Positions 12,175-63,975 of a stretch of 64,000 nucleotides of DNA are shown here, in pieces. Origin of the DNA: Megaleporinus macrocephalus (lineage: Eukaryota > Chordata > Actinopteri > Characiformes > Anostomidae); NCBI GenBank assembly GCA_021613375.1, contig CM038705.1, positions 5,787,364-5,851,363 on the forward strand, written 5' to 3'. The notes beneath the pieces were generated by a model. That model ran no database searches and had not been told where the DNA came from. It worked only from the letters and a program-made list of their open reading frames with translations. Position 1 is the first letter of the stretch. Each line of letters starts with the position of its first letter. Made by a program: the position numbers and the translations under genes.

Positions 12175-13192
12175 CTATAATGTTTATATGATCTAGACAG
12201 TCACTCTGACAGACTGTAATACACTACAGGAAGTGTAGGGGGCGATATAACTTCTATTGTTTTATACTTAAAAAGAGTCTATAATGTTTATATGATCTAG
12301 ACAGTCACTCTGACAGACTGTAATACACTACAGGAAGTGTAGGGGGCGATATAACTTCTATTGTTTTATATTTAAAAAGAGTCTATAATGTTTATATGAT
12401 CTACACAGTCATTCTGACAGACTGTAATACACTACAGGAAGTGTAGGGGGCGATATAACTTCTATTGTTTTATATTTAAAAAGAGTCTATAATGTTTATA
12501 TGATCTACACAGTCATTCTGACAGACTGTAATACACTACAGGAAGTGTAGGGGCGATATAACTTCTATTGTTTTATATTTAAAAAGTGTCTATAATGTTT
12601 ATATGATCTACACAGTCATTCTGACAGACTGTAATACACTACAGGAGGTGTAGGGGGCGATATAACTTCTATTGTTTTATATTTAAAAAGTGTCTATAAT
12701 GTTTATATGATCTACACAGTCATTCTAACAGACTGTAATACACTACAGGAAGTGTAGGGGGCGATATAACTTCTATTGTTTTATATTTAAAAAGTGTCTA
12801 TATTGTTTATATGATCCACGCAGTCATTCTGACAGACTGTAATACACTACAGGAAGTGTAGGGGGCGATATAACTTCTATTGTTTTATATTTAAAAAGTG
12901 TCTATAATGTTTATATGATCTACACAGTCATTCTGACAGACTGTAATACACTACAGGACATGTAGGGGGCGATATAACTTCTATTGTTTTATATTTAAAA
13001 AGAGTCTATAATGTCTATATGATCTACACAGTCATTCTGACAGACTGTAATACACTACAGGAGGTGTAGGGGGCGATATAACTTCTATTGTTTTATATTT
13101 AAAAAGTGTCTATAATGTCTATATGATCCACACAGTCATTCTGACAGACTGTAATACACTACAGGAGGTGTAGGGGGCGATATAACTTCTAC
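12175..13192 (+). repeat. 104-bp minisatellite, intron 2 array
   Basis: About ten copies of a 104-base unit contain ATAATGTTTATATGATCTAC, CATTCTGACAGACTGTAATA, CACTACAGGAAGTGTAGGGG and TATAACTTCTATTGTTTTAT. The TACACTACAGGAAGTGTA segment can fold into a six-base stem. The same unit in the same orientation forms the array at 24186-25935 in intron 3. Confidence 0.97.
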
Positions 13193-13935
13193 TGTTATTG
13201 TCTAATAGGCGTATTGAGATGGTATGCACTGGGATTGGGAAAATAAATAATTTGATTTGTCTGTTTTTCTTTCTGTCAATCATTTTATATTCCATTGTTG
13301 ATTTGTCCATTGTTGACGTTGGACGTCTGTCATGTTGGAACATCTGAGTGAAGGTACGCGGCGCGCTGGGCTTTGGTGATGCGATATCTGCTCGTTGCCG
13401 TGGCGGTGGATGAGGGAAAGTCTGCAATTAGAGCTTTTTTATAAGGAGGCTTTTGTGTGTCGGCAACACTCGGCGTTCCGACGTACGTATCTCAAATTAG
13501 CTGTCTTTTTCTTCGTCGGAAAACAAAAGCCCTCCGCTCTCGGCAAATCAAACGGGCTGTAATGACTCTGACCGCTTAAAGAATGGCACACAATGCGCTG
13601 GTTATGGACTACACCTGATGTTCCGGGCAGATAAATCCGGGCGCGTGCAGCGCTCCGACGCTTCCCATTGTAGCCGGAATAATTAATAATAGTGCCGTGG
13701 TGCCGGGACTCTCTCGCAGAAATTGGATTGGAGCATCTGGGCCTGTAGATACGCCTCAGGCAGGCGAGCACTGCTGTTTAAGTAAACATTCGATTCCAGC
13801 GTGAAGTGAAAACATTCCACAGAGGCCGGAACAATGAAACGGGGGATGATGAAACCCGCTGGAACTCCTGGCCCGCGTTCAGCAATAATACTGAAAGTGT
13901 GACGTACTGGTGATAATTATAGCCGGCCGAGTCCG
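13193..13935. other. Unique island, candidate conserved noncoding sequence
   Basis: Between two arrays lies about 740 bases of complex sequence without internal repeats. It has several CpGs and AT-hook or homeodomain-like motifs such as GAATAATTAATAATAG near 13677. No frame shows protein homology. A regulatory role is inferred only from its complexity amid decayed repeats. Confidence 0.4.
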
Positions 13936-15650
13936 TCATAACGTTTATATATCACAATACCTACAATTAGAGTTATACATTCAACCTAATGAGAAACTGT
14001 ACTCAGTTTATATCACAATACCTACATTTAGAGTTATACATTCAACCTAATGAGAAACTGTACTCAGATTATATATCACAATACCTACATTTAGAGTTAT
14101 ACATTCAACCTAATGAGAAACTGTACTCAGTTTATATCACAATACCTACATTTAGAGTTATACATTCAACCTAATGAGAAACTGTACTCAGATTATATAT
14201 CACAATACCTACATTTAGAGTTATACATTCAACCTAATGAGAAACTGTACTCAGTTTATATACAATACCTACATTTAGAGTTATACATTCAACCTAATGA
14301 GAAACTGTACTCAGTTTATATACAATACCTACATTTAGAGTTATACATTCAACCTAATGAGAAACTGTACTCAGTTTATATACAATACCTACATTTAGAG
14401 TTATACATTTAACCTAATGAGAAACTGTAACTCAGTTTATATACAATACATACATTTAGAGTTATACATTCAACCTAATGAGAAACTGTAACTCAGTTTA
14501 TATACAATACCTACATTTAGAGTTATACATTCAACCTAATGAGAAACTGTACTCAGTTTATATACAATACCTACATTTAGAGTTATACATTCAACCTAAT
14601 GAGAAACTGTACTCAGTTTATATACAATACCTACATTTAGAGTTATACATTCAACCTAATAAGAAACTGTACTCAGGTTATATATCACAATACCTACATT
14701 TAGAGTTATACATTCAACCTAATAAGAAACTGTACTCAGGTTATATATCACAATACCTACATTTAGAGTTATACATTCAACCTAATGAGAAACTGTATTC
14801 AGTTTATATATCACAGTACCTACATTTAGAGTTATACATTCAACCTAATGAGAAACTGTACTCAGTTTGTATGTCACAATACCTACATTTAGAGTTATAC
14901 ATTCAACCTAATGAGAAACTGTATTCAGTTTATATATCACAGTACCTACATTTAGAGTTATACATTCAACCTAATGAGAAACTGTACTCAGTTTATATAC
15001 AATACCTACATTTAGAGTTATACATTCAACCTAATAAGAAACTGTACTCAGTTTATATCACAATACCTACATTTAGAGTTATACATTCAACCTAATAAGA
15101 AACTGTACTCAGGTTATATATCACAGTACCTACATTTAGAGTTATACATTCAACCTAATAAGAAACTGTACTCAGGTTATATATCACAGTACCTACATTT
15201 AGAGTTATACATTCAACCTAATGAGAAACTGTACTCAGTTTGTATGTCACAATACCTACATTTAGAGTTATACATTCAACCTAATAAGAAACTGTACTCA
15301 GGTTATATATCACAGTACCTACATTTAGAGTTATACATTCAACCTAATGAGAAACTGTACTCAGGTTATATATCACAATACCTACATTTAGAGTTATACA
15401 TTCAACCTAATGAGAAACTGTAACTCAGTTTATATCACAATACCTACATTTAGAGTTATACATTCAACCTAATGAGAAACTGTACTCAGGTTATATATCA
15501 CAATACCTACATTTAGAGTTATACATTCAACCTAATGAGAAACTGTACTCAGTTTATAAACAATACCTACATTTAGAGTTATACATTCAACCTAATGAGA
15601 AACTGTACTCAGTTTATAAACAATACCTACATTTAGAGTTATACATTAAT
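13936..15650 (+). repeat. 60-bp minisatellite, forward array
   Basis: The unit (about 28 copies) contains CTAATGAGAAACTGTACTCA, GTTTATATACAATACCTACA and TTTAGAGTTATACATTCAAC, with small insertions (ATC) in some copies. Because 60 is divisible by three, it gives a long artefactual frame. The same unit in reverse complement forms the intron 6 array at 53865-55462. Confidence 0.97.
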
Positions 15651-20574: not shown

Positions 20575-21346
20575 GGGTTAGGGTTAGGTTAGGGTTAGGT
20601 TAGGTTAAATTTAGATTAGGGTTAGGGTTAGGGTTAGGTTAGGGTTAATTTAGGTTAGGTTAGGTTAGGTTAGGTTAGGTTAGGTTAGGGTTAGGGTTAG
20701 GTTAGGTTAGATTTAGGTTAGGGTTAGGTTAGAGTTAGGTTAGGGTTAGGTTAGTGTTAGGGTTAGGTTAGATTTAGGTTAGGTTAGGGTTAGGTTAGAT
20801 TTAGGTTAGGGTAAGGTCCCTGTTTTTGCGGAAGTGAAGATGTTTTCCTCGAGTTGGACTCTGGTGGGTTAGGGTTAGGTTAGGGTTAGGTTAGGGTTAG
20901 GTCCCTGTTTTTGTGGAAGTGAAGATGTTTTCCTCGAGTTAATGGACTCTAGGGTTAGGTTTAGGTTAGGGTTAGGTTAGGTTAGGGTCAGGGTTAGGGT
21001 TAAGGTTAGGGTTAAGGTTACGGTTAGGGTTAAGGTTAGGTCCCTGTTTTGTGGAAGTGAAGAGGTTTTCCTCGAGTTAATGGACTCTGGTGGGTTAGGG
21101 TTAGGGTTAAGTTAGGGTTAAGATTAGGGTTAAGGTTAGGGCTAGGTTAGGGTTAAGGTTAGGTCCCTGTTTTGTGGAGGTAAAGAGGTTTTCCTCGAGT
21201 TAATGGACCCTGGTGGGTGTGGGTTAGGGTTAACGTTAGGGTTAGGTTAGGGTTAAGGTTAAGGTTAGGGTTAGGTTAGGGTTAAGGTTAGGTCCCTGTT
21301 TTGTGGAAGTGAAGAGGTTTTCCTCGAGTTAATGGACTCTGGTGGC
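20575..21346 (+). repeat. Interstitial telomere-like array with a composite unit
   Basis: Runs of TTAGGG and TTAGG (GTTAGGGTTAGGTTAGG) are interrupted five times by a non-telomeric spacer of about 55 bases. The spacer starts GGTCCCTGTTTT and includes GTTTTCCTCGAGTTAATGG. Spacers start near 20815, 20900, 21039, 21162 and 21291. The regular alternation shows that the composite unit was amplified. Confidence 0.93.
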
Positions 21347-24169: not shown

Positions 24170-24185
24170 GTACAAAAGCTCTATA

Positions 24186-25935
24186 TTGTTTATATAATCT
24201 ACACAGTCATTCTGACAGACTGTAATACACTACAGGAAGTGTAGGGGGCGATATAACTTCTATTGTTTTATATTTAAAAAGTGTCTATAATGTTTATATA
24301 ATCTACACAGTCATTCTGACAGACTGTAATACACTACAGGAAGTGTAGGGGGCGATATAACTTCTATTGTTTTATATTTAAAAAGAGTCTATAATGTCTA
24401 TATGATCTACACAGTCATTCTGACAGACTGTAATACACTACAGGAAGTGTAGGGGGCGATATAACTTCTATTGTTTTATATTTAAAAAGAGTCTATAATG
24501 TTTATATGATCTACACAGTCATTCTGATAGACTGTAATACATTACAGGAAGTGTAGGGGGCGATATAACTTCTATTGTTTTATATTTAAAAAGAGTCTAT
24601 AATGTCTATATGATCTACACAGTCATTCTGACAGACTGTAATACATTACAGGAAGTGTAGGGGGCGATATAACTTCTATTGTTTTATATTTAAAAAGAGT
24701 CTATAATGTCTACATGATCTACACAGTCATTCTGACAGACTGTAATACACTACAGGAAGTGTAGGGGGCGATATAACTTCTATTGTTTTATATTTAAAAA
24801 GAGTCTATAATGTCTATATGATCTACACAGTCATTCTGACAGACTGTAATACATTACAGGAAGTGTAGGGGCCGATATAACTTCTATTGTTTTATATTTA
24901 AAAAGAGTCTATAATGTTTATATGATCTACACAGTCATTCTGACAGACTGTAATACACTACAGGAAGTGTAGGGGCCGATATAACTTCTATTGTTTTATA
25001 TTTAAAAAGAGTCTATAATGTTTATATGATCTACACAGTCATTCTGACAGACTGTAATACACTACAGGAAGTGTAGGGGGCGATATAACTTCTATTGTTT
25101 TATATTTAAAAAGTGTCTATAATGTTTATATGATCTACACAGTCATTCTGACAGACTGTAATACGCTACAGGAAGTGTAGGGGGCGATATAACTTCTATT
25201 GTTTTATATTTAAAAAGAGTCAATAATGTTTATATGACCTACACAGTCATTCTGACAGACTGTAATACGCTACAGGAAGTGTAGGGGGCGATATAACTTC
25301 TATTGTTTTATATTTAAAAAGAGTCTATAATGTTTATATGATCTACACAGTCATTCTGACAGAATGTTATACGCTACAGGAAGTGTAGGGGGCGATATAA
25401 CTTCTATTGTTTTATATTTAAAAAGAGTCTATAATGTTTATATGATCTACACAGTCATTCTGACAGAATGTAATACGCTACAGGAAGTGTAGGGGGCGAT
25501 ATAACTTCTATTGTTTTATATTTAAAAAGAGTCTATAATGTTTATATGATCTACACAGTCATTCTGACAGAATGTTATACACTACAGGAAGTGTAGGGGG
25601 CGATATAACTTCTATTGTTTTATATTTAAAAAGAGTCTATAATGTTTATATGATCTACACAGTCATTCTGACAGAATGTAATACACTACAGGAAGTGTAG
25701 GGGGCGATATAACTTCTATTGTTTTATATTTAAAAAGAGTCTATAATGTTTATATGATCTACACAGTCATTCTGACAGACTGTAATACACTACAGGAAGT
25801 GTAGGGGGCGATATAACTTCTATTGTTTTATATTTAAAAAGAGTCTATAATGTTTATATGATCTACACAGTCATTCTGACAGACTGTAATACACTACAGG
25901 AAGTGTAGGGGGTGATATAACTTCCATTGTTTTAA
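24186..25935 (+). repeat. 104-bp minisatellite, intron 3 array
   Basis: About 17 copies of the unit of the intron 2 array (12175-13192) lie here in the same orientation, with exact 104-base spacing. Copies here are more uniform than in intron 2. The first unit (AAAAGCTCTATATTG) starts next to the exon 3 donor. Confidence 0.97.
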
Positions 25936-26262
25936 AATGTGTACATGCAACAGCAACACGTACTGCCTCACTTATCAGCGTGTGCTGTGCTGGTGTGAGT
26001 GGATCAGACACAGCAGTGCTGCTGCTGCTGCTGGAGTGTTTAAACACCTTATTGTCACTGCTGGACTGAGAATCATCGTCCACCAACCAAAACTATCCAG
26101 ACAGCAGTGTCCTGTGGGCGGCGTCCTGTGTCCACTGATGAAGAACTAGAGGAACACAAACTGTGCAGCAGCAGATGAGCTACTGTCTCTGACTTTACAT
26201 CTACAAGGTGGACCAGCAAGTAGTAGGAGTGTCTAATAGAGTGGATGAAGGTTATGAATGGA
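25936..26262 (+). repeat. Dispersed fish repeat (GTGTGCTGTGCTGGTGTGAG)
   Basis: It contains GTGTGCTGTGCTGGTGTGAG, GTGGATCAGACACAGCAG, a CTG run and TGGACCAGCAAGTAGTAGGA. Its last 85 bases recur at 48130-48215. I know this sequence type as a common interspersed repeat of teleost genomes; the exact family is not certain. Confidence 0.7.
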
Positions 26263-41984: not shown

Positions 41985-43655
41985 AGTGGGACTAAACTGC
42001 TGTAGGTTGAATGGGTGGAGCTAGACTGCTGTAGGCTGAGTGGGTGGGGCTGAACTGCTGTAGGCTGAATGGGTGGGACTAAACTGCAGTAGGCTGAATG
42101 GGTGGGGCTGAACTGCTGTAGGCTGAATGGGTGGGGCTAAACTGCTATAGACTGACTGGGTGGAGCTAAACTGCTGTAGACTGAATGGGTGGAGCTAAAC
42201 TGCTGTAGGCTGAATGAGTGGAGCTAAACTGCTGTAGACTGAACGGGTGGAGCTAAACTGCTGTAGACTGAACGGGTGGAGCTAAACTGCTGTAGACTGA
42301 ACGGGTGGAGCTAAATTGCTGTAGGCTGAATGGGTGGAGCTAGACTGCTATAGACAGAATGGGCGGGGCTAATATGTTGTAGGGATAAATGAGCAAGGCT
42401 AAACTGCTGTAGGCTGAATGTGTGGAGCTAAACTGCTGTAGGTTGAATGGGTGGAGCTAAACTGCTGTAGGCTGCATTAGTGGAGCTAAACTGCTATAGA
42501 CTGAATAGGTGGAGCTAAACTGCTGTAGGCTAAATGGGTGGAGCTAGACTGCTGTAGGCTGAATGGGTGGGGCTGAACTGCTGTAGGCTAAATGGGTGGG
42601 ACTAAACTGCTGTAGACTGAATGGGTGGAACTAAACTGATGTAGACTGAATGGGTGGAGCTAAACTGCTGTAGGGTGAATTGGCAGAGCTAAACTGATGT
42701 AGACTGAATGGGTGGAGCTAAACTGCTGTAGGGTGAATTGGCAGAGCTAAACTGATGTAGACTGAATGGGTAGAGCTAAACTGCTGTAGGGTGAATTGGC
42801 AGAGCTAAACTGCTGTAGACAGAATAGGCGGGGCTAATCTGTTGTAGGGCTAAATGAGCAAGTCTAAACTGCTGTAGGTTGAATGGGTGGGGCTAAACTG
42901 CTGTAGGCTGAATGGGTGGGGCTAAACTGCTGTAGGCTGAATGGGTGGAGCTAAACTGCTGTAGGCTGAATGGGCGGAGCTAAACTGCTGTAGGCTGAAT
43001 GGGCGGAGTTAAACTGCTGTAGGCTGAATGGGCGGAGTTAAACTGCTGTAGGCTGAATAGGTTGAGTTAAACTGCTGTAGGCTGAATGGGCGGAGTTAAA
43101 CTGCTGTAGGCTGAATGGGCGGAGTTAAACTGCTGTAGGCTGAATAGGTCGAGTTAAACTGCTGTAGGCTGAATGGGCGGAGTTAAACTGCTGTAGGCTG
43201 AATGGGCGGAGTTAAACTGCTGTAGGCTGAATAGGTGGAGTTAAACTGCTGTAGGCTGAATGGGCGGAGTTAAACTGCTGTAGGCTGAATGGGCGGAGTT
43301 AAACTGCTGTAGGCTGAATAGGTGGAGTTAAACTGCTGTAGGCTGAATGGGCGGAGTTAAACTGCTGTAGGCTAAATGGGTGGGACTAAACTGCTGTAGA
43401 CTGAATGGCTGGGACTAAACTGATGTAGACTGAATGGGTGGAGCTAAACTGCTGTAGGGTGAATTGGCAGAGCTAAACTGCTGTAGACAGAATAGGCGGG
43501 GCTAATCTGTTGTAGGGCTAAATGAGCAAGTCTAAACTGCTGTAGGTTGAATGGGTGGGGCTAAACTGCTGTAGGCTGAATGAGTGGAGCTAAACTGCTG
43601 TAGGCTGAATGGGCGGAGTTAAACTGCTGTAGGCTGAATGGGCGGGGTTACTAAC
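41985..43655 (+). repeat. 29-bp minisatellite, intron 4 array
   Basis: The unit is AACTGCTGTAGGCTGAATGG plus GTGGAGCTA, in about 57 copies. A block of GGCGGAGTTA variants is homogenised at about 42970-43375. The same family occurs inverted at 56165-57780 and direct at 62920-63970. Confidence 0.96.
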
Positions 43656-45745: not shown

Positions 45746-48016
45746 TAGCGACTTTGTGTTCGGCTGTTCCGTTCAGCTACTGTGTAGTGACTGCTTAGCT
45801 TCTTTTGTTTGCTAATAGCTCTTTTTAGTTGCTGTGTTTGGTAGCTTTATTCAGCAACTCTATGTAGCTGCTCTGTTTAGCTACTCTGTGTAGCGGCCCA
45901 GTGTACTGGTTCTGTCTACCTGCCCTTCGTGTGTACAGGTTCTGTATAGCGGCTTAGTTTAGCGGCTCTGTAAAGCGGCTCCGTATATCGGCTCCGTATA
46001 GCGGCTCTGTTTAGCGGCTCAGTTTAGCGGTTCAGTTTAGAGGTTCTGTTTAGCGGCTTAGTTTAGCGGTTCAGTTTAGAGCTTCTGTTTAGAGGTTCTG
46101 TTTAGCGGCTCAGTTTAGCGGTTCAGTTTAGAGGTTCTGTTTAGCGGCTTAGTTTAGCGGTTCAGTTTAGAGGTTCTGTTTAGCGGCTTAGTTTAGCGGT
46201 TCAGTTTAGAGGTTCAGTTTAGAGGTTCTGTTTAGCGGCTCAGTTTAGCGGTTCAGTTTAGAGGTTCTGTTTAGCGGCTTAGTTTAGCGGTTCAGTTTAG
46301 AGGTTCAGTTTAGAGGTTCTGTTTAGCGGCTCAGTTTAGCGGTTCAGTTTAGAGGTTCTGTTTAGCGGCTCAGTTTAGCGGCTCTGTTTAGCGGCTCTGT
46401 TTAGTGGTTCAATTTAGCGACTGTGTTTAGCGGCTCTGTTTAGTGGTTCAATTTAGCGACTGTGTTTAGAGACTCTGTTTAGCGTCTCTGTTTAGAGACT
46501 CTGTTTAGAGACTGTGTTTAGTGGCTCTGTTTAGAGGTTCAGTTTAGTGGCTCACTTTAGAGGCTTTGTTTAGAGACTCTGTTTAGAGACTCTGTTTAGA
46601 GGTTCAGTTTAGTGGCTCACTTTAGAGGCTTTGTTTAGAGACTCTGTTTAGAGGTTCAGTTTAGAGTCTTAGTTTAGAGACTCTGTTTAGCGTCTCTGTT
46701 TAGAGACTCTGTTTAGAGACTCTGTTTAGAGACTCTGTTTAGAGACTCTGTTTAGCGTCTCTGTTTAGAGACTCTGTTTAGCGTCTCTGTTTAGAGACTC
46801 TGTTTAAAGGCTCTGTTTAGCGACTGTGTTTAGTGGCTCTGTTTAGAGGTTCAGTTTAGTGGCTCACTTTAGAGGCTTTGTTTAGAGACTCTGTTTAGAG
46901 GTTCAGTTTAGAGTCTTAGTTTAGAGACTCTGTTTAGCGTCTCTGTTTAGAGACTCTGTTTAGAGACTCTGTTTAGCGTCTCTGTTTAGAGACTCTGTTT
47001 AGAGACTCTGTTTAGAGACTCTGTTTAGAGACTCTGTTTAGAGTCTTAGTTTAGAGACTCTGTTTAGCGTCTCTGTTTAGAGACTCTGTTTAGAGACTCT
47101 GTTTAGAGACTCTGTTTAGACACTCTGTTTAGAGTCTCAGTTTAGCGTCTCTGTTTAGAGACTCTGTTTAGAGACTCTGTTTAGACACTCTGTTTAGAGA
47201 CTCTGTTTAGAGACTCAGTTTAGCGTCTCTGTTTAGCGTCTCTGTTTAGCGGCTTTGTTTAGAGACTCTGTTTAGAGACTCTGTTTAGAGACTCTGTTTA
47301 GAGACTCTGTTTAGCGTCTCTGTTTAGAGACTCTGTTTAGAGACTCTGTTTAGCGTCTCTGTTTAGAGACTCTGTTTAGAGACTCTGTTTAGAGGCTCAG
47401 TTTAGAGACTCTGTTTAGAGACTCTGTTTAGAGACTCTGTTTAGAGACTCTGTTTAGAGACTCTGTTTAGCGTCTCTGTTTAGAGACTCTGTTTAGAGAC
47501 TCTGTTTAGAGGTTCAGTTTAGCGGCTCTGTTTAGAGGTTCAGTTTAGCGGCTCTGTTTAGAGACTCTGTTTAGAGACTCTGTTTAGAGACTCTGTTTAG
47601 AGACTCTGTTTAGAGACTCAGTTTAGCGTCTCTGTTTAGCGTCTCTGTTTAGAGACTCTGTTTAGAGACTCTGTTTAGAGACTCAGTTTAGCGTCTCTGT
47701 TTAGCGTCTCTGTTTAGAGACTCTGTTTAGAGACTCTGTTTAGAGACTCTGTTTAGAGACTCTGTTTAGCGTCTCTGTTTAGAGACTCTGTTTAGAGACT
47801 CTGTTTAGCGTCTCTGTTTAGAGACTCTGTTTAGAGACTCTGTTTAGAGACTCTGTTTAGAGACTCTGTTTAGCGTCTCTGTTTAGAGACTCTGTTTAGA
47901 GACTCTGTTTAGCGTCTCTGTTTAGAGACTCTGTTTAGAGACTCTGTTTAGAGGTTCAGTTTAGCGGCTCTGTTTAGAGACTCTGTTTAGAGACTCTGTT
48001 TAGAGGCTCAGTTTAA
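45746..48016 (+). repeat. 13-bp minisatellite, GTTTAGAGACTCT type
   Basis: The units continue with the same 13-base period and drift from GTGTAGCTGCTCT through GTTTAGCGGCTCT (about 45950-46400) to GTTTAGAGACTCT (46480-48000). With the previous array it forms one 3.5-kb tract whose monomer changes gradually. Confidence 0.96.
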
Positions 48017-48235
48017 CTGCTCTCTGAGGAGTTGTTTGATGATTTGTGGGGGTCGTCCCAGTTTGCCTGGACACCATTTATCACCTCCATGAGAGCAGCA
48101 TTAAATCTCTGTTCACTCAGAGCTGAGTTTTAGCAGCAGATGAGCTACTGTCTCTGACTTTACATCTTCAAGGTGGACCAGCAAGTAGTAGGAGTGTCTA
48201 ATAGAGTGGACAGTCAGTGGACACATCATTGGGCA
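48017..48235 (+). repeat. Second copy of the teleost dispersed repeat (partial)
   Basis: 48130-48215 (GCAGATGAGCTACTGTCTCT ... TGGACCAGCAAGTAGTAGGA) matches the end of the element at 25936-26262 almost base for base. The upstream 110 bases are not found in the other copy. Confidence 0.7.
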
Positions 48236-48357
48236 AAGGCGGGGTACACCATGGACAGGTCGCCAGTCCATCGCATCCATCCACACACGCACCTACAGGC
48301 AATATAAAGTGAGCGATCAACCTAACACGATAACCACTACACCACCGTGCTGTCATT
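48236..48357 (+). mobile_element. 3' tail of a LINE-like fish repeat
   Basis: GGCGGGGTACACCATGGACA, GGTCGCCAGTCCATCGCA, ACCTACAGGCAATATAAAGT and finally TAACCACTACACCACCGTGC are a shortened version of a tail I know from many teleost interspersed repeats, here followed by ATT/TTG microsatellites (48354-48397). Internal parts are deleted. The family name is uncertain. Its terminal 20 bases equal one unit of the 5151-6852 satellite. Confidence 0.65.
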
Positions 48358-48397
48358 ATTATTATTATTATTATTGTTGTTGTTGTTGTTGTTGTTG

Positions 48398-48879
48398 TAA
48401 GAACATGCAGTCTGTGTTGGTTCTCTTCAGAGGGAGGTTTGGGTCTCTGCTGCTGTATTAATGAGAAGCTGTTGATTGCTCTGAATGAGACTCCGGGGTC
48501 GTGACCCCAGTAGCATCGCAGCTTTAATTAGCGCCATCACAGAATCTCTCAGATGAATGAATTAATGACAGATTCATAATTCAGGCTGGATTAAAAATGC
48601 ACCGAGTGCAGAAACCCAGCCGGACCCGAGCTGTGTTCAACGGACACTTTTGCTGCAGATCCTTTCAACTCTATCTGGAATCTGATTGGTGTTCCCACTT
48701 TCAAAGCCCTTATGTGAACATCAAATGATGGTCATCAACTGTCCTGAATAGTCTTGACTGTTGCACAGTGACCAGTGTCTAGAGCTGGCTTTACACAGTG
48801 ATTCTTTCTAACTGTAACTGGTTGCATGTTACCAGTTGCATGCAACATTAGTGCAACATTGCCACAAGGCTTTGAAAGG
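48398..48879. other. Unique island, candidate conserved noncoding sequence
   Basis: 48430-48640 is complex and rich in homeodomain-type motifs (GTATTAATGAGAAGC, GCTTTAATTAGCGCCATC, GAATTAATGACAGATTC, GGATTAAAAATGC). It contains no protein frame. The rest up to the Tc1 copy is unremarkable. Confidence 0.45.
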
Positions 48880-49775
48880 GTTAAATAAACACACTGGTCT
48901 CATTCTTAATCCATAGGGTTTAATATGATGTCGGCCCAACATTTGCAGCTATAACAGCTTCAACTCTTCTGGGAAGGCTCTCCACACGGTTTAGGAGAGT
49001 GTTTATAGGAATGTTTGACGGTTCTTCCAGAAGACCATTAGTGAGGTCAGACACTGATGTTGGACGAGAAGGTCTGGCTCACAGTCTCCGCTCTAATTCA
49101 TCCCAAAGGTGTTCTATCAGGTTGAGGTCAGGACTCTGTGCAGGCCAGTCAAGTTCTTCCACACCAAACTCACTCCTTCATGTCTTTATGGAGCTGCTCT
49201 GTGCACTGGTGGGCAGTCATGTTGGAACAGGAAGGGCCGTCCCCAAACTGTCCCCACAAAGTTGGGAGCATGAAATTGTCCAGAATCTCTTGGTCTGCTG
49301 AAGCATTAATAGTTCCTTGCACTGGAACTAAGGGTCCGAGCCCACCTCCTGAATACCAACCCCACACCATAACCCCCCCTCAACCAAACTTTACACTCGG
49401 CACAATGCAGTCAGACAAGTACCGTTCTCCTGGCAACCTCCAAACCCAGACTCCTCCATTGGATTGCCAGACGGAGAAGCGTGATTGGTCACTCCAGAGA
49501 ACACGTCTCCACTGCTCTAGAGTCCAGTGTTGGCTGCTTTACTCCACTGCATCCGACGCTCTGCATTGTTCTTGGTGATGTAAGGCTTGGATGCAGCTGC
49601 TCGGCCATGGAGACCCATTCCATGAAGCTCTCTATGCTCTGTTCTTGAGCTGATCTGAAGACCACATGAAGTTTGGAGGTTTGGAGATCTTTCTTTATGA
49701 TTGGCTGAAGTTTCGTGAAGTTGAGACATTTGCAACTGTTCCAACTGAGTGCAGCTGAGGACACTTCTATAGTTT
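48880..49775 (-). pseudogene. Degraded Tc1-like transposase (DD34E)
   Basis: Read on the minus strand this is a broken Tc1/mariner transposase. Recognisable parts in order are MGLHGRAAASKPYITKNNAE and RMQWSKAA (end of the DNA-binding region), a WSDQSRF block with the first catalytic Asp (codon 49488-49490), GLGPLVPVQGTINASADQE and ILDNFMLPTLWGQFGDGP, a QHD with the second Asp (49216-49218), and [18 protein letters not shown] with the catalytic Glu (49112-49114). Asp2 to Glu is 104 nt, one less than the 105 expected for DD34E, so a single-base deletion lies between them. Premature stops and frameshifts make it inactive. No terminal repeats were identified. Confidence 0.9.
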
Positions 49776-50121
49776 CATTTACGTTTCATGTTACACTTGT
49801 ATCACACATACATAATCACAGCGCTTTGATTAGCTGGTTCACGAAACTTGTTTGATGAAGTTGCAGCCAGGTTGCAGCTAAGTTGCAAATGAGTTGCAAG
49901 ATGCTTTACATTAATTCAGGCTGCATCCAAGTTTTGTGTGGATTAATAGTTATGTGTGGTTTTGGTTGCAGCCTCAGTTTCATGTAAGCATTGAGGTTGC
50001 ATGTCTGTTTCACAGTATAAAGAAAGCGTAGCAGCTGTAAACGGTGGCGAAGCCGGTCAGACTGTGTGGTTTCTTCAGGATGAAGGGAAGCAATAACGTA
50101 CGGTTTGTGTTTGTGTTTCAG
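49776..50121 (+). other. sntb1: 3' end of intron 4
   Basis: The sequence contains several GTTGCA motifs (49858-50000) and runs into the acceptor TTTGTGTTTCAG. No separate feature is recognised. Confidence 0.55.
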
Positions 50122-50258
50122 ACGGAGAGCGAGCGTCAGCGCTGGAAGCCGGTGGTGCTGGTGGTGACGGAGAAGGACCTGCTGCTGTACGACACTATGG
50201 CGCGAATGAAGGAAAACTGGGTGAACCCAACACACACTTACCCGCTGCTCTCGACTCG
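50122..50258 (+). CDS. sntb1: Beta-1-syntrophin exon 5: start of PH2
   Basis: The exon encodes TESERQRWKPVVLVVTEKDL, then LLYDTMARMKENWVNPTHTY and PLLSTR, the first strands of the second PH domain. The RWKPVVLVVTEKDLLLYD core and HTYPLL motif are diagnostic of syntrophins. It joins exon 4 in phase 0 (LAEK|TESER). The donor is ACTCG|GTACGC, phase 2, completing an Arg with exon 6. Confidence 0.95.
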
Positions 50259-50330
50259 GTACGCTGGGGTTTAGTTTGGTTTTTATGTTGCGTGGTTAGG
50301 TTTTCATTTAATTTAAACAGTTTCATAAAC

Positions 50331-52902
50331 AGTTTAAACCCTAAAGAGAATATTTGGGCCAGTGAGAGTCCAGATTTAAACCATATAGAGAATGTGCTGT
50401 GGTCAGAGTCCAGATTTAAACCCTATAGAGAATATTTGGGCCAGTCAGAGTCCAGATTTAAACCCTATAGAGAATGTGTTGTGGTCAGAGTCCAGATTTA
50501 AACTCTATAGAGAATATTTGGTCCAGTCAGAGTCCAGATTTAAACCCTGAAGAGAATATTTGGTCCAATCAGAGTCCAGATTTAAACCCTATAGAGAATA
50601 TTTGGGCCAGTCAGAGTCCAGATTTAAACTCTATAGAGAATATTTTGTCCAGTCAGAGTCCAGATTTAAACCCTATAGAGAATATTTGGTCCAGTCAGAG
50701 TCCAGATTTAAACCCTATAGAGAATATTTGGGCCAGTCAGAGTCCAGATTTAAACCCTATAGAGAATATTTGGTTCAGTCAGAGTCCAGATTTAAACCCT
50801 ATAGAGAATATTTGGTCCAGTCAGAGTCCAGATTTAAACTCTATAGAGAATATTTGGTCCAGTCAGAGTCCAGATTTAAACCCTATAGAGAATATTTGGT
50901 CCAGTCAGAGTCCAGATTTAAACTCTATAGAGAATATTTGGGCCAGTCAGAGTCCAGATTTAAACCCTATAGAGAATATTTGGGCCAGTCAGAGTCCAGA
51001 TTTAAACTCTATAGAGAATATTTTGTCCAGTCAGAGTCCAGATTTAAACCCTATAGAGAATATTTGGTCCAGTCAGAGTCCAGATTTAAACCCTATAGAG
51101 AATATTTGGGCCAGTCAGAGTCCAGATGTAAACCCTATAGAGAATATTTGGGCCAGTCAGAGTCCAGATTTAAACCCTATAGAGAATATTTGGTCCAGTC
51201 AGAGTCCAGATTTAAACCCTATAGAGAATATTTGGTCCAGTCAGAGTCCAGATTTAAACTCTATAGAGAATATTTGGTCCAGTCAGAGTCCAGATTTAAA
51301 CCCTATAGAGAATATTTGGTCCAGTCAGAGTCCAGATTTAAAACCTATAGAGAATATTTGGTTCAGTCAGAGTCCAGATTTAAACTCTATAGAGAATATT
51401 TGGTCCAGTCAGAGTCCAGATTTAAACTCTATAGAGAATATTTGGTTCAGTCAGAGTCCAGATTTAAACTCTATAGAGAATATTTGGGCCAGTCAGAGTC
51501 CAGATTTAAACTCTATAGAGAATATTTGGTCCAGTCAGAGTCCAGATTTAAACTCTATAGAGAATATTTGGTCCAGTCAGAGTCCAGATTAAAACTCTAT
51601 AGAGAATATTTGGTTCAGTCAGAGTCCAGATTTAAACTCTATAGAGAATATTTGGGCCAGTCAGAGTCCAGATTTAAACTCTATAGAGAATATTTGGGCC
51701 CGTCAGAGTCCAGATTAAAACTCTATAGAGAATATTTGGTCCAGTCAGAGTCCAGATTTAAACTCTATAGAGAATATTTGGTCCAGTCAGAGTACAGATT
51801 TAAACTCTATAGAGAATATTTGGGCCAGTCAGAGTCCAGATTTAAACTCTATAGAGAATATTTGGGCCCGTCAGAGTCCAGATTTAAACCCTATAGAGAA
51901 TATTTGGTCCAGTCAGAGTCCAGATTTAAACCCTATAGAGAATATTTGGTCCAGTCAGAGTCCAGATTTAAACTCTATAGAGAATATTTGGTCCAGTCAG
52001 AGTCCAGATTTAAACTCTATAGAGAATATTTGGTTCAGTCAGAGTCCAGATTTAAACTCTATAGAGAATATTTGGGCCAGTCAGAGTCCAGATTTAAACT
52101 CTATAGAGAATATTTGGGCCAGTCAGAGTCCAGATTAAAACTCTATAGAGAATATTTGGTCCAGTCAGAGTCCAGATTTAAACTCTATAGAGAATATTTG
52201 GTCCAGTCAGAGTCCAGATTTAAACTCTATAGAGAATATTTGGGCCCGTCAGAGTCCAGATTTAAACTCTATAGAGAATATTTGGTCCAGTCAGAGTCCA
52301 GATTTTAACCCTATAGAGAATATTTGGTCCAGTCAGAGTCCAGATTTAAACCCTATAGAGAATATTTGGTCCAGTCAGAGTCCAGATTTAAACCCTATAG
52401 ACAATATTTTGTCCAGTCAGAGTCCAGATTTAAACTCTATAGAGAATATTTGGTCCAGTCAGAGTCCAGATTTAAACCCTATAGAGAATATTTGGTCCAG
52501 TCAGAGTCCAGGTTTAAACCCTATAGACAATATTTGGTCCAGTCAGAGTCCAGGTTTAAAACCTATAGAGAATATTTGGTCCAGTCAGAGTCCAGATTTA
52601 AACTCTATAGAGAATATTTGGTCCAGTCAGAGTCCAGATTTAAACTCTATAGAGAATATTTGGTCCAGTCAGAGTCCAGGTTTAAAACCTATAGAGAATA
52701 TTTGGTCCAGTCAGAGTCCAGGTTTAAAACCTATAGAGAATATTTGGTCCAGTCAGAGTCCAGATTTAAACTCTATAGAGAATATTTGGTCCAGTCAGAG
52801 TCCAGATTTAAACTCTATAGAGAATATTTGGTCCAGTCAGAGTCCAGATTTAAACTCTATAGAGAATATTTGGTCCAGTCAGAGTCCAGATTTAAACCCT
52901 AT
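50331..52902 (+). repeat. 42-bp minisatellite encoding the Tc1 transposase SQSPDLNPIENIW motif
   Basis: About 61 copies of a 42-base unit: CAGAGTCCAGATTTAAACCC then TATAGAGAATATTTGGTC and AGT. In one frame each unit translates as SQSPDLNPIENIWS (or NSIENIW), which is the conserved block around the third catalytic residue (Glu) of Tc1-type DD34E transposases. That frame is open from 50474 to 51592 and again 52409-52933. A second frame is open 50560-52308. The first units (50331-50475) are shorter and diverged. It sits inside an intron, starts about 72 bases after the donor, has no promoter or start context, and is not a gene. Confidence 0.95.
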
Positions 52903-53614
52903 TTTCAGATTTTTCAGATTATGTGGCTACTAAACACTGACGTACTGAAACTGCCTACTAGTCTGCCGCTCAAGCAGTACTGGCTCTAATCTAGTACCCA
53001 CTGACGAGTAGGCGATTTCGGATGCACTGGTCCAGAACTCCGCCCACCAGGGTTGAACATGGGCTGCTGCTGTGGCTGACGGATTCCATAATCATGGGTT
53101 TTTATTCCAGTGGGATTATTTATGTAAATGGGCTTTTCAGAAGGTACACGCAGCGTCTCCTGTTCCATTACCGCCGTGTCAGCAGACCCTCCACACGTGA
53201 TGGAGAGGAATCCCACCTCTGCTATCTTTCACTGTCGTCCTCTTAACTTCACCACCTAACGAGCTTAATAAACACCAGCCGGCTGCGTATGTGCCCCCTG
53301 AGCTTAATACCTCTTTAAGAAATATCACAAAATACTGAATACTCATGAAAACTGATGCTGATGCTGTGTAATGTCTAGTTCGCACTACACTATGGGTGTG
53401 TCTCAAATCCTAGTGAGTGTGTAAGTAGGCTGTCTAGGTAGCAGCTGTGTAAGTAGCAGCGTTCTCTCCTCATCTCTCCTCCTGGCACATCACACTAAAG
53501 CAGACTGCGATTGGTCGAACTGTATGTCAGTCAAGCGTCCATTTCCTGTCACAGTAGGTTGTTCTTAGCTATGTCCAGTTAGCTTTGAGACTAAACCTGT
53601 TTGCTTGTCTTCAG
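52903..53614. other. sntb1: 3' part of intron 5
   Basis: 53398-53417 repeats the GTGTCTCAAATCCTAGTGAG motif found at 29624-29643, followed by GTAGGCTGTCTAGGTAGCAG, so a dispersed element is likely here. The rest is unrecognised. Confidence 0.5.
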
Positions 53615-53811
53615 GCTTGTCCACTCTGGTCCAGACAGAGGATCTCCCCAGCCGGGCGGCGAGCTGTCCTTTGCCACGCGGACGGGGACGCGGCTGGGCA
53701 TCGAGACGCACGTGTTCAGAGCTGAAACTTGTAAGGACCTGTCTCTGTGGACGAGACACATAGTGACCGGCTGTCACACGTCCGCCGAAATGATCAAAGA
53801 AGTAACGACCA
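53615..53811 (+). CDS. sntb1: Beta-1-syntrophin exon 6: C-terminal half of PH2
   Basis: After the split Arg it encodes LVHSGPDRGSPQPGGELSFA, then TRTGTRLGIETHVFRAET and DLSLWTRHIVTGCHTSAEMI. These are the last strands and helix of PH2; the Trp of the PH helix (LSLWTR) is present. The LVHSG, ELSFATRTGTR and WTR blocks match vertebrate syntrophins, with ETHVFRAET closest to SNTB1. The donor is ACCA|GTGAGT, phase 1. The following exon with the syntrophin-unique domain is not found up to 64000. Confidence 0.95.
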
Positions 53812-53864
53812 GTGAGTACAGTGACCACCAAGATTCTCCTCTCAGTGCAGCAGTCGAGTTGAAT

Positions 53865-55462
53865 ATATAACTCTAAATGTAGGTATTGTATATAAACTGA
53901 GTTACAGTTTCTCATTAGGTTGAATGTATAACTCTAAATGTAGGTATTGTATATAAACTAAGTTACAGTTTCTCATTACGTTGAATGTATAATTCTAAAT
54001 GTAGGTATTGTATATAAACTGAGTTACAGTTTCACATTAGGTTGAATATATACCTCTAAATGTAGATATTGCCTATAAACTGAGTTACCGTTTCTTGTTA
54101 GATTGAATGTATAACTCTAAATGTAGGTATTGTATATAAACTGACTTATAGTTTCTCATTAGGTTGAATGTATAAGTCTAAATGTAGGTATTGTATATAA
54201 ACTGAGTTACAGTTTCTCATTAGGTTGAATGTATAAGTCTAAATGTAGGTATTGTATATAAACTGAGTACAGTTTCTCATTAGGTTGAATGTATATCTCT
54301 AAATGTAGGTATTGTGATATAAACAGAATACAGTTTCTCATTAGGTTGAATGTATAACTCTAAATGTAGGTATTGTGATATAAACTGAGTACAGTTTCTC
54401 ATTAGGTTGAATGTATAACTCTAAATGTAGGTATTGTATATAAACTGAGTACAGTTTCTCAATAGGTTGAAGGTATAACTCTAAATGTAGGTATTGTGAT
54501 ATATAAACTGAGTACAGTTTCTCATTAGGTTGAATGTATAACTCTAAATGTAGGTATTATGATATATAAACTGAGTACAGTTTCTCATTAGGTTGAATGT
54601 ATAACTCTAAATGTAGGTATTATGATATATAAACTGAGTACAGTTTCTCATTAGGTTGAATGTATAACTCTAAATGTAGGTATTATGATATATAAACTGA
54701 GTACAGTTTCTCAATAGGTTGAAGGTATAACTCTAAATGTAGGTATTGTGATATATAAACTGAGTTACAGTCTCTCATTAGGTTGAATGTATAACTCTAA
54801 ATGTAGGTATTGTATATAAACTGAGTACAGTTTCTCAATAGGTTGAAGGTATAACTCTAAATGTAGGTATTATGATATATAAACTGAGTACAGTTTCTCA
54901 TTAGGTTGAATGTATAACTCTAAATGTAGGTATTGTATATAAACTGAGTACAGTTTCTCATTAGGTTGAATGTATAACTCTAAATGTAGGTATTGTGATA
55001 TAAACTGAGTACAGTTTCTCATTAGGTCGAATGTATAACTCTAAATGTAGGTATTGATATATAAACTGAATACAGTTTCTCATTAGGTCGAATGTATAAC
55101 TCTAAATGTAGGTATTGTATATAAACTGAGTACAGTTTCTCATTAGGTTGAATGTATAACTCTAAATGTAGGTATTGTATATAAACTGAGTACAGTTTCT
55201 CATTAGGTTGAATGTATAACTCTAAATGTAGGTATTGTATATAAACTGAATACAGTTTCTCATTAGGTTGAATGTATAACTCTAAATGTAGGTATTGTAT
55301 ATAAACTGAGTTACAGTTTCTCATTAGGTTGAATGTATAACTCCAAATGTAGGTATTGAATATAAACTGAGTTACAGTTTCTCATTAGGTTGAATGTATA
55401 ACTCTAAATGTAGGTATTGTATATAAACTGAGTACAGTTTCTCATTAGGTCGAATGTATAAC
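53865..55462 (-). repeat. 60-bp minisatellite, inverted array
   Basis: The unit GTTGAATGTATAACTCTAAA, TGTAGGTATTGTATATAAAC, TGAGTACAGTTTCTCATTAG is the exact reverse complement of the intron 2 unit (13936-15650). About 26 copies are present, with the same optional ATC insertion types. The array begins about 55 bases after the exon 6 donor. Confidence 0.97.
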
Positions 55463-55552
55463 TCAGTCTACATCAAACATCATATATGTGTATTCAGGTT
55501 GAATCACTCTGGTGGCCACCAGGAATTTGACCAGGTTACTGTCCTCTCCTTT

Positions 55553-56167: not shown

Positions 56168-57783
56168 TGTTAGCTCCACCCATTCAGTCTACAGCAATTT
56201 AGCTCCACCCATTCAGTCTACAGCAATTTAGCTCCACCCATTCAGTCTACAGCAATTTAGCTCCACCCATTCAGTCTACAGCAATTTAGCTCCACCCATT
56301 CAGTCTACAGCAATTTAGCTCCACCCATTCAGTCTACAGCAGTTTAGCTCCACCCATTCAGTCTACAGCAATTTAGCTCCATCCATTCAGTCTACAGCAA
56401 TTTAGCTCCACCCATTCAGTCTACAGCAATTTAGCTCCATCCATTCAGTCTACAGCAATTTAGCTCCACCCATTCAGTCTACAGCAATTTAGCTCCACCC
56501 ATTCAGTCTACAGCAATTTAGCTCCATCCATTCAGTCTACAGCAATTTAGCTCCACCCATTCAGTCTACAGCAATTTAGCTCCATCCATTCAGTCTACAG
56601 CAATTTAGCTCCACCCATTCAGTCTACAGCAATTTAGCTCCACCCATTCAGTCTACAGCAATTTAGCTCCATCCATTCAGTCTACAGCAATTTAGCTTCA
56701 CCCATTCAGTCTACAGCAATTTAGCTCCATCCATTCAGTCTACAGCAATTTAGCTTCACCCATTCAGTCTACAGCAGTTTAGCTCCACTCATTCAGCCTA
56801 CAGCAGTTTAGCTCCACCCATTCAGCCTACAGCAGTTTAGCTCCACTCATTCAGCCTACAGCAGTTTAGCTCCACCCATTCAGTGTACAGCAGTTTAGCT
56901 CCACTCATTCAGCCTATAGCAGTTTAGCTCCACCCATTCAGTCTACAGCAGTTTAGCTCCACCCATTCAGTGTACAGCAGTTTAGCCCCATCCATTCAGC
57001 CTACAGCAGTTTAGCTCCACTCATTCAGCCTACAACAGTTTAGCTCCACCCATTCAGCGTACAGCAGTTTAGCCCCACTCATTCAGCCTACAACAGTTTA
57101 GCTCCACCCATTCAGCCTACAGCAGTTTAGCTCCACTCATTCAGCCTATAGCAGTTTAGCTCCACCCATTCAGTCTACAGCAGTTTAGCTCCACCCATTC
57201 AGCCTATAGCAGTTTAGCTCCACCCATTCAGTCTACAGCAGTTTAGCTCCACCCATTCAGCCTACAGCAGTTTAGCTCCACCCATTCAGCCTACAGCAGT
57301 TTAGCTCCACTCATTCAGCCTACAGCAGTTTAGCTCCACCCATTCAGTGTACAGCAGTTTAGCTCCACTCATTCAGCCTATAGCAGTTTAGCTCCACCCA
57401 TTCAGTCTACAGCAGTTTAGCTCCACCCATTCAGTGTACAGCAGTTTAGCCCCATCCATTCAGCCTACAGCAGTTTAGCTCCACTCATTCAGCCTACAAC
57501 AGTTTAGCTCCACCCATTCAGTGTACAGCAGTTTAGCCCCACTCATTCAGCCTACAACAGTTTAGCTCCACCCATTCAGCCTACAGCAGTTTAGCTCCAC
57601 TCATTCAGCCTATAGCAGTTTAGCTCCACCCATTCAGTCTACAGCAGTTTAGCTCCACCCATTCAGCCTATAGCAGTTTAGCTCCACCCATTCAGTCTAC
57701 AGCAGTTTAGCTCCACCCATTCAGCCTATAGCAGTTTAGCTCCACCCATTCAGTCTACAGCAGTTTAGCTCCACCCATTCATG
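56168..57783 (-). repeat. 29-bp minisatellite, inverted intron 6 array
   Basis: The unit TTAGCTCCACCCATTCAGTC plus TACAGCAAT is the reverse complement of the intron 4 unit. About 56 copies are present. The 5' half carries CAGCAATTT and the 3' half CAGCAGTTT. A variant block starting CAGTGTACAGC at 56881 recurs at 57345, a 464-base (16-unit) duplication. Confidence 0.96.
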
Positions 57784-58480: not shown

Positions 58481-58768
58481 CAAGACCGCTGTAAGAGTTA
58501 CTACCAGTCCAGTCTGCTGCTCACTGCGTCGTGCAGGCTAACAAGTTCACGGGGCTCTTAAAGGGCCCGTAGCCTACATTTCCTATGTAAACAGGGTTTT
58601 GTTGGTACTGTGCCTTTAAGGCTGCTGTATGTAAATAAGCTCCTATTTAGAATTTGCCACTCGTGTTTGTGCACAGAGGAATCTGACCTCCACATTTAAC
58701 CCATCCTGCAGTGAAACACCCACATATACACACACTAGTGAACACACATATTAGGGGAGAGTGAAACA
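58481..58768. other. Intron 6 sequence with an old dispersed repeat
   Basis: 58600-58625 (GTACTGTGCCTTTAAGG) is the complement of a motif at about 2078-2092 in intron 1, so a decayed interspersed element is likely. Confidence 0.4.
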
Positions 58769-58774
58769 CATCCT

Positions 58775-58820
<46 letters not shown>

Positions 58821-58829
58821 GGGGCAGTG

Positions 58830-58899
<70 letters not shown>

Positions 58900-59057
58900 G
58901 AACACCCACGCACACACACTCTAGTGAACACGCACTATAAAGGGCAGTTAAACACCCACATACACACACACACACACACACACACTAGGGGGCAGTTAAA
59001 CACCCACATAAACACAATAGTGACACAACACAGATTAGGAAAGAGTGAAACAAACCC

Positions 59058-59093
<36 letters not shown>

Positions 59094-59137
59094 GGGCAGT
59101 GAAACACACACACACACACATACACTAGGGGGCAGTT

Positions 59138-59180
<43 letters not shown>

Positions 59181-59357
59181 GGGGTAGTTAAACACACACA
59201 CTAGGGGGCAGTGAAACACAAACACACACACATACACTAGGGGGCAGTGAAACACACACACACTAGAGGGGAGTGAAACACACCCACACACTAGGGGGCA
59301 GTGAAACACACACATACACGAGGGGGCTGTGAAACACACACATACACTAGGGGGCAG

Positions 59358-59404
<47 letters not shown>

Positions 59405-59557
59405 GGGGCAGTGAAACACCCACATACATACACACTAGTGAACACACACACTAGGGGGCAGTGAAACACATACACACTCAATAGGGGGCAGTGAAACACA
59501 CACACACTAGGGCCTGTAAAACACACCAACACACTCACTAGGGGACAGTGAAACACC

Positions 59558-59595
<38 letters not shown>

Positions 59596-59719
59596 GGGGC
59601 AGTGAAACACACACACTCACTAGGGGGCAGTGAAACACCCACATACATACACACTAGTGAACACACACCCTACGGGGCAGTGAAACACATGCACACTCAC
59701 TAGGGGGCAGTGAAACACC

Positions 59720-59765
<46 letters not shown>

Positions 59766-59813
59766 GGGCCAATAAAACACACCAACACACTCATTAGGGG
59801 ACAGTGAAACGCC

Positions 59814-59877
<64 letters not shown>

Positions 59878-60148
59878 GGGGCAGGGAAACACACAAACTC
59901 ACTAGGGGACAGTGAAACGCCCACACACACACACACACACCCTAGGGGGCAGTGAAAAACATGCACACACACACACACTAGGGGGCAGGGAAACACACAC
60001 ACTAACTAGGGGACAGTGAAACACCCAAACACATGCATACACACTAGTGAACACGCACACAAGGGGGGGTGTCGAACATCCACATACACACACACACTAG
60101 GGGCCCATAAAACACACCAACACACTCATTAGGGGACAGTAAAACGCC

Positions 60149-60196
<48 letters not shown>

Positions 60197-60488
60197 GGGG
60201 CAGGGAAACACACACACTCACTAGGGGACAGTGAAACGCCCACACACACACACACTAGCGGACAGTGCAACACCCCCCCCACACACACACACACACCCTA
60301 GGGGGCAGTGAAAAACATGCACACACACTAAGGGGCAGTGAAACACCCACACACACACTAGGGGGCAGGGAAACACACACACTCACTAGGGGACAGTGAA
60401 ACACCCAAACACATGCATACACACTAGTGAACACGCACACAAGGGGGGGTATCGAACATCCACATACACACACACACACACACCCCTA
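58769..60488. repeat. Compound (CA)n and CTAGGGGGCAGTGAAACAC array
   Basis: Runs of (CA)n of varying length are separated by CACTAGGGGGCAGTGAAACA units, giving dozens of copies in 1.7 kb. Larger blocks repeat: the segment around 59975-60100 recurs around 60360-60475. Confidence 0.96.
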
Positions 60489-62372: not shown

Positions 62373-62918
62373 GCACAATAAGCTTTAAAGGCACAGGAAC
62401 ACAAACAGCTTGTTTGGGGTAAAGAGGGGTTCCAGAGCTCATCCCAGAACTCTGCTGTGCATCCAGTATGCGTTCCCATGATCCCGCGGGGCCTCTGCTG
62501 TACAGTATGTGCTGAAATGCGCGTCCGCAGCTCTATTGTGAGTGTTCCAGTGATTCTACCTGCTCGGCTCCCCCGTTCACTCTGAATCACCCACTGAGTG
62601 ACTAATTGCGAGGGTTCTTTTGAGGATGCGAGGCTTTGTGTGATCTCCTGATCTTCAGACTGAGTTACAGCGCTGCACCCGGTCACACCGGTCACCAAAC
62701 ACAGCCCAGTGTTTTGCTGCGTAACTCAAAACATTCTCGCAATAACCTGCGCCCTGACCGTCCAGTAGACCGTCCAGATAAACAGAATAAACAGATAAAC
62801 AGAAAAGAGACGTCCAGGGAAAAGTAATCAATCACAGTGACTCATTATTAAAGAGCCAACAGCAACTTTTTCTACAAGATGATTTTTCTTCTCTCTGTTT
62901 TTTTCTTAGTAAACTAAT
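62373..62918. other. Unique sequence between arrays
   Basis: No exon or RNA gene is recognised. AGCTTTAAAGGCACAGGAAC at 62381-62400 resembles the AAAGGCACAGTAAC motif of intron 1. Confidence 0.4.
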
Positions 62919-63975
62919 GGGGCCAAAGTACTATAGACTGAATCGGCGGGGCCAAAGTACTATAGACTGAATCGGCGGGGCCAAAGTACTATAGACTGAA
63001 TCGGTGGGGCTAAATTGCTATAGACTGAATCGGCGGGGCCAAAGTACTATAGACTGAATCGGTGGGGCCAAAGTACTATAGACTGAATCGGTGGGGCTAA
63101 ATTGCTATAGATTGAATGGGTGGGGCCAAACTGCTGTAGACTGCATGGGTGGGGCTGAATCACTATTTGCTAAATAGATGGGGTTGAAATTCCAATAGAT
63201 GGAATGGACTTGGTTAAACTCCTATAGAGTGAATGGACAAGGCTAAAGTACTACAGAATGAATAGACAGAGCTAAACTGCCATAGATTGAATGGGTGAGG
63301 CTATACTACTATAGATTGAATGGTTGAGGCTATACTACTATAGACTGAATGGAAGGGGACAAACTGCTATAGACTGAATGGGTGGGGCTAAACTATGATA
63401 GACTAAATAGGTAGGGCTGAACTATAGACTGAATGGGTGGGGCTAAATTGCTATAGACTGAATGGGTAGGGCTAATTTGCTATAGACTGAATGGGTGGGG
63501 CTAAACTACTATAGACTGAATGGGTGAGGCTAAACTACTATAGACTAAATGGGTAGGGCTAAACTACTACAGACTGTAGGCTAAAGAACTATAGAATGAA
63601 TGGGTGGAGCTGAACTGCTATAGACTGAATGGATATGGCTAAATTGCTATAGATTGAATGGGTGGGGCCAAACTGCTGTAGACTGAATGGGTGGGGCTAA
63701 ATTGCTATAGATGGAATGGACTTAGTTAAACTCCTATAGACTAAATGGACAAGGCTAAAGTACTACAGAGTGAATGGACAGGGCTAAACTGCTGTAGACT
63801 GAAAGGGTGGGGCTAAACTGCTATAGACTGAATGGACAAGGCTAAAGTACTACTGAATGAATGGGTGGGCTAACTGCTATAGACTGAATTAACAAGGCTA
63901 AACTCCTGTAGATTGAAAGAGTGGGCTAAACTGCAGTAGACTGAGTAGACGGGATAAACTACTATAGACTCTCTG
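62919..63975 (+). repeat. 29-bp minisatellite, third array
   Basis: Units such as AACTGCTATAGACTGAATGG plus GTGGGGCTA belong to the same family as the intron 4 array, same orientation. This copy is the most diverged, with irregular length after 63150. The 5' end has a homogenised CGGCGGGGCCAAAGTACTAT variant. Confidence 0.93.

Follow-up and report, generated by a model that had tools for sequence, protein, structure and literature searches.

The array analyzed here lies in a 64-kb window (the whole stretch of DNA that was analyzed), within an intron (50259-53614) of a gene that we take to resemble a fish syntrophin. The joined translation of the two exons flanking this intron matched a PH domain (E 1.9e-10), and the same translation retrieved no PDB chain at E 0.001. 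Approximately 77% of the intron is occupied by a tandem repeat with a period of 42 (61.3 copies, 94% matches and 0% indels in TRF), in agreement with the original prediction of about 61 repeats of a 42-base, 14-codon unit. The array is a minisatellite in the usual sense of head-to-tail units of ~10-100 bp at one locus: 61.3 copies of 42 bp extend over 2.57 kb. On the far side of the adjoining exon, ~1.2 kb from the array, we found a decayed copy of a Tc1 element, referred to below as the relic. The features of the locus are collected in Table 1.

Table 1. Features of the host intron, the array and the nearby Tc1 relic (positions are those of the window).
Feature	Position	Strand	Basis
Decayed Tc1-like transposase, upstream of the exon preceding the array	48920..49740 (approximate, from translation)	-	tblastn; HTH_Tnp_Tc3_2 and DDE_3 pieces
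Relic catalytic block, where the array unit has its best DNA placement outside the arrays	49103..49147	-	tblastn; ungapped placement
Exon preceding the array, with AG/GT borders; encodes the first part of the PH domain	50122..50258	+	sequence; joined translation matches PF00169
42-bp minisatellite, 61.3 copies	50333..52902	+	TRF; anchor spacing; Pfam
First of two 40-nt variant units in the 82-bp dimer pattern; breaks the frame	50363..50402	+	anchor spacing
40-nt variant unit, second of two	50445..50484	+	anchor spacing
Open run of 372 codons in the motif frame, explained by the periodicity and not a gene	50474..51592	+	ORF list; unit variants
Exon following the array, with AG/GT borders; encodes the second part of the PH domain	53615..53811	+	sequence; joined translation matches PF00169

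In one frame, called the motif frame here, the 42-base unit reads W[S/A]SQSPDLN[P/S]IENIW, and the block encoded in this way surrounds the catalytic Glu, the third acidic residue in DD34E transposases. The unit had been read from the letters alone as this Glu block of Tc1 with a Pro codon at the P/S position; the assignment to the block stands, and the Pro does not, as this position is Ser (TCT) in 32 full units out of 58 and Pro (CCT) in the other 26. The codon for the catalytic Glu is GAG in 56 full units and GAC in the other two, and a G directly follows TGG in 15/58. The anchor GAGT[C/A]CAG was found at 61 sites, and its spacing is 42 nt in 58 of 60 intervals and 40 nt in two. The two 40-nt units disrupt the motif frame close to the 5' edge of the array, where 40-nt and 42-nt units alternate as an 82-bp dimer. 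Both edges of the array fall within the catalytic block and not at a Trp, and the last unit is incomplete. Adjacent units differed on average by 0.039 compared to 0.045 when the order was randomized (a value as low occurred in 23 of 2000 permutations), and this slight likeness of neighbors is in line with local expansion. Higher-order blocks were considered and dropped: the peaks of unit identity at lags 3-4 and 9-10 were weak (0.18-0.20 compared to 0.13 expected), and no multi-unit block was repeated beyond chance, the longest run being 4 units, a length reached in 395 of 2000 shuffles.

Pfam searches of the motif frame identified DDE_3, with E 5e-26 over 363 aa (above the gathering score) and, for two stretches of 84 aa, E 1.6e-9 (50486-50737) and 7.2e-8 (50471-50722), both over the cut-off. 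Because repeats inflate profile scores, control frames from other arrays were scanned for comparison. The longest stop-free stretch of at least 40 aa (cut at 84) was taken from each frame of 22 other arrays; 18 of these arrays yielded 62 stretches (40-84 aa) and the remaining four gave none. The best E for any Pfam family among the 62 control frames was 1.8e-4, and DDE_3 was absent among the 25 of 43 families listed for them. The non-motif frames of the Tc1-motif array itself reached E values down to 4.8e-4 (WWE_3). A second family, Homez, also matched the array repeats, over its cut-off on two stretches (E 1.9e-5 and 2.1e-12) and under it on two others (E 0.0011 and 0.058), and in every array stretch scanned it was weaker than DDE_3. 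When a single unit (20-21 aa) was searched, DDE_3 was again the top match, at E 0.0028 and 0.0059, which is under the Pfam cut-off. The sole PDB match at E up to 10 was Sleeping Beauty SB100X (5cr4; E 0.0011). In the alignment of WSSQSPDLNPIENIWA from the array with WPSQSPDLNPIENLWA from SB100X, 14/16 residues are identical, both Trp included, and the two Trp of the SB100X block lie 14 residues apart, a spacing equal to the length of the 14-codon unit.

Comparison of the unit peptide with the rest of the window (tblastn) gave one clear match, on the minus strand in the catalytic block of the relic (E 6e-5), the runner-up having E 0.34. The relic consists of HTH and DDE remnants with stops, pieces of which match HTH_Tnp_Tc3_2 (E 4.8e-10), DDE_3 (E 4.5e-5) and SB100X (E 1.9e-6); no inverted repeat of at least 16 nt was found around it (48016-50330). 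Its catalytic block likewise has a Trp on either side, with a spacing of 14 residues, and the codon after the second Trp starts with G, as it must in SB100X too, where the residue is Ala.

The same comparison was made at the DNA level by ungapped placement of the unit, in each of the 42 phases and on both strands, over the window outside the arrays (27,392 unmasked bases). For the GCC/CCT variant of the unit, all 8 placements with at least 28/45 identities overlap the catalytic block of the relic. The best of them, 30/45, occurs in the motif codon register and also one base off, and dinucleotide shuffles of this variant reached at most 26/45 across 5000. The majority unit scored 29/45 on the relic block, a score also reached at one unrelated place (40497), and the 58 full units showed 27-30 identities of 45 on it. 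Smith-Waterman scores against the relic were 28 for the majority unit, 32 for the TCC/CCT variant and 35 for the GCC/CCT variant (4 of 5000 shuffles were as high); in a control with 20 other arrays and 20 random windows each, the maxima were 22-33, a range surpassed only by the GCC/CCT variant. Since the Smith-Waterman scores separate the majority unit poorly, we relied on the phase-by-phase placement. The host Tc1 DNA compared in this way, one decayed relic in the window, shares 29-30 of 45 bases with the unit. Judged from these alignments, the relic is no closer than a cousin to the source of the array and probably belongs to another Tc1 lineage.

An unrelated 42-bp unit that by chance reads like the Tc1 motif in one frame might also give a modest E value for a single unit, a second Pfam family on the same repeats, and a weak Smith-Waterman score of the majority unit to the relic, all of which we observed. 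Such a coincidence would, however, have to produce the shared residues and both Trp of SB100X, a profile match with nothing comparable in 0/62 control frames, and a best DNA placement in the window that falls on a Tc1 relic in codon register, and we consider it very unlikely. The profile, PDB and DNA comparisons support the origin that had been proposed, namely the Glu-containing block of a Tc1-like transposase. The unit is thus homologous to a part of a transposable element (DDE_3, SB100X, relic placement), as in a transposon-derived minisatellite. Of a DD34E element, with its HTH and DDE frame between TIRs, the array contains only the block around the Glu.

Two other readings were examined and rejected. 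Phage DNA, as a non-transposon source, was set aside when 168 bases of the array, compared to phages by blastn, matched 24 records, the best 20 of which were all at E ~6. A structured RNA was also set aside: the 10 Rfam matches in 48000-53900 were all under the gathering score of their own family, and nine of them were Flavi_NKV_xrRNA on the array (21.6-27.4 bits compared to 50), which we took as chance. In addition, a search for the Tc1 DNA beyond the host, using exact degenerate patterns, found no match in viral contigs or in bacterial and archaeal genomes.

The original prediction had described the motif frame as open for 372 codons before a point change makes a stop. We confirmed this description, the change being TTA to TAA, and discarded the openness as evidence, because another frame of the array is open for longer (585 codons, listed as an ORF of 582 aa). 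A period divisible by three produces long open frames, and their openness is therefore no sign of coding. Among 15 distinct variants in the motif frame, 14 were non-synonymous, one was a stop and none was synonymous, where ~24% synonymous changes would be expected, and a stop codon was present in 3 of the 58 units; there was thus no sign of purifying selection on the motif frame. The long stretches in the two frames are what one might see if the array is or was translated, as a domesticated repeat protein or as a cryptic exon. However, the array sits between the AG/GT borders of two exons that jointly make the PH domain, and its intron position, its stops and its variant spectrum led us to reject a protein-coding or domesticated array. 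We regard translation, present or past, as extremely improbable, as had been anticipated for domestication on account of the intron, and by these features of its sequence the array looks non-coding.

The transposase motif and the host gene share one strand. The array could accordingly be pictured as transcribed with the gene in transposase sense, where its many units would serve antisense Tc1 piRNAs as targets or decoys; the Tc1 DNA compared above is, however, too diverged from the unit for long perfect pairing, and a role of this kind strikes us as exceedingly improbable.

Taken together, these results point to a non-coding minisatellite derived from the Trp-to-Trp stretch, ~42-45 bp long, of the gene for a Tc1-like (DD34E) transposase, and we give this reading a probability of about 0.87. 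The source stretch would run from the Trp preceding the SPDLNPIEN motif through the Trp after it. Because the unit is 14 codons long and its Trp is common to the next unit, the array equals a tandem duplication that ends at two TGG codons, and the founding tandem pair may have arisen by slippage or unequal exchange between them. It is the spacing that suggests TGG as the junction, a sequence of only 3 bp. In some units TGG is followed by a G, which may be left over from this junction. We found no single-copy ancestor of the unit, and the Trp-to-Trp spacing matches the unit in SB100X and in the relic. Further unequal exchange or slippage would have carried the array to ~61 copies, perhaps partly as the 82-bp dimer, which would survive at the 5' edge, and the present-day array would be drifting as neutral intron DNA. 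Its effects are predicted to be limited, in all likelihood, to variable intron length and recombination instability.

The flanks of the array bear on where this process began. In 50100-50332 and 52903-53857, blastn and tblastn showed no convincing similarity to the relic (best E ~0.3), and an array residing inside a Tc1 element was rejected for want of support from these flanks. Since they are without detectable Tc1, the captured piece that is visible today amounts to at most about the 45-bp block. Moreover, with no Tc1 sequence detectable in the flanks and both ends of the array within the block, the array may have been founded at a site other than the present one: either the transposase sequence around it has disappeared, or the insertion was of a short multimer from elsewhere. 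The second course would keep the Tc1 origin. The array or a short multimer would have been made elsewhere in the genome, inserted in the intron and expanded there, and the intron itself would never have held a Tc1 insertion. This is what the flanks, in which no Tc1 similarity was detected, and the position of both edges would suggest, and three other minisatellite families in the window occur at separate places with no visible similarity in their flanks. On the other hand, the relic in the same gene indicates that Tc1 elements do insert there, and an old flanking Tc1 could have decayed or been deleted. We hold an origin elsewhere in the genome to be quite possible, at somewhat short of even odds.

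Tandem arrays (TRF, period of at least 10) fill 50-57% of the 64-kb window, depending on the score limit. At a TRF score of at least 500 they merge into 23 blocks between 3889 and 63970, 15 of which are 1.0-2.0 kb long. The Tc1-motif array is one of many in the window, and its readable source sets it apart. Several families recur: a 104-bp family at 12174-13196 and 24180-25934, the two arrays having the same starting phase and end phases within a few bases of each other; a 61-bp family at 13948-15647 and 53858-55464 (inverted); and a 29-bp family at 41992-43642, 56170-57781 (inverted) and 62918-63970, with a short stub at 1931-1973. No shared sequence was visible in the 60-bp flanks of these families. 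The window also contains a 79-bp dispersed repeat (26167-26245 and 48132-48210, 98.7% identical), an array of telomere-like GGTTA/GGGTTA motifs with a longer unit interspersed (20576-21345), and a compound array in which (AC)n is interleaved with ACTAGGGGGCAGTGAA units (58700-60480). A 20-bp array at 5159-6854 (~85 copies) is identical at 16/16 bases to a single copy at 48331-48346 (E 0.001), which makes an interspersed repeat its possible seed. The readable Tc1 source, this 20-bp array as a second candidate, the arrays that fill half of the window and at least three recurring families give grounds for speculating that the genome has an unusually active process in which short transposon blocks become kilobase arrays and are re-seeded at new sites, which we nonetheless think rather unlikely.

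Transposon-derived minisatellites are well documented (PMC3389668, PMC9659126), and the Tc1-motif array is a further, unusually legible case. In human, at least 7,276 tandem repeats, 23% of minisatellites and satellites, are reported to derive from transposable elements (Ahmed and Liang 2012, PMC3389668), and the postulated mechanisms of origin account for only 6% of the transposon-derived repeats (PMC3389668). These human repeats resemble the Tc1-motif array in that stretches of transposable elements have turned tandem; the main text of that paper contains none of the terms "DNA transposon", "mariner", "transposase" and "coding", and hence no Tc1 coding case like the one described here (PMC3389668). 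PROsat and Pvc 20, from LINE-1 ORF2, and chicken HinfI, partly from CR1 ORF2, share with the array a unit taken from protein-coding transposon sequence (PMC9659126), although they come from retrotransposons, whereas the array would come from a DNA transposon and its unit is only 14 codons long. Tandem repeats tied, like the array, to the Tc1/mariner superfamily include Xenopus miDNA4, Drosophila Bari1 clusters and mariner in Messor satDNA (PMC12628747, PMC9659126). As described in these sources, the first is a satellite carried inside a MITE, the second consists of clustered Bari1 elements and the third is an element inside a satellite, whereas the array is built of transposase motif units. 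In the open-licence PMC literature, including PMC11955569, as far as its accessible text goes, we found no minisatellite of the Tc1 transposase catalytic motif.

Two published models of minisatellite birth are relevant to the origin proposed here. In that of Haber and Louis (1998), short direct repeats bracket the motif, and in that of Taylor and Breden (2000), drawn from the guppy, incomplete terminal units are a feature (both as cited in PMC6947457 and PMC3389668). The array has an incomplete terminal unit, as expected in the second model, and short repeats may have bracketed its future unit. These bracketing repeats would be two TGG codons of 3 bp, shorter than the 5-10 bp cited for repeats in the first model.

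Profile search marks 21 DDE_3 stretches within what is a non-coding intron, and annotation of such loci calls for caution. Many minisatellites no longer reveal their origin. This array shows its source block, its likely founding end points and its later variation, and its source is legible because few blocks of the protein family are more conserved. The short-direct-repeat model of minisatellite birth can thus be put to a concrete test on this array.
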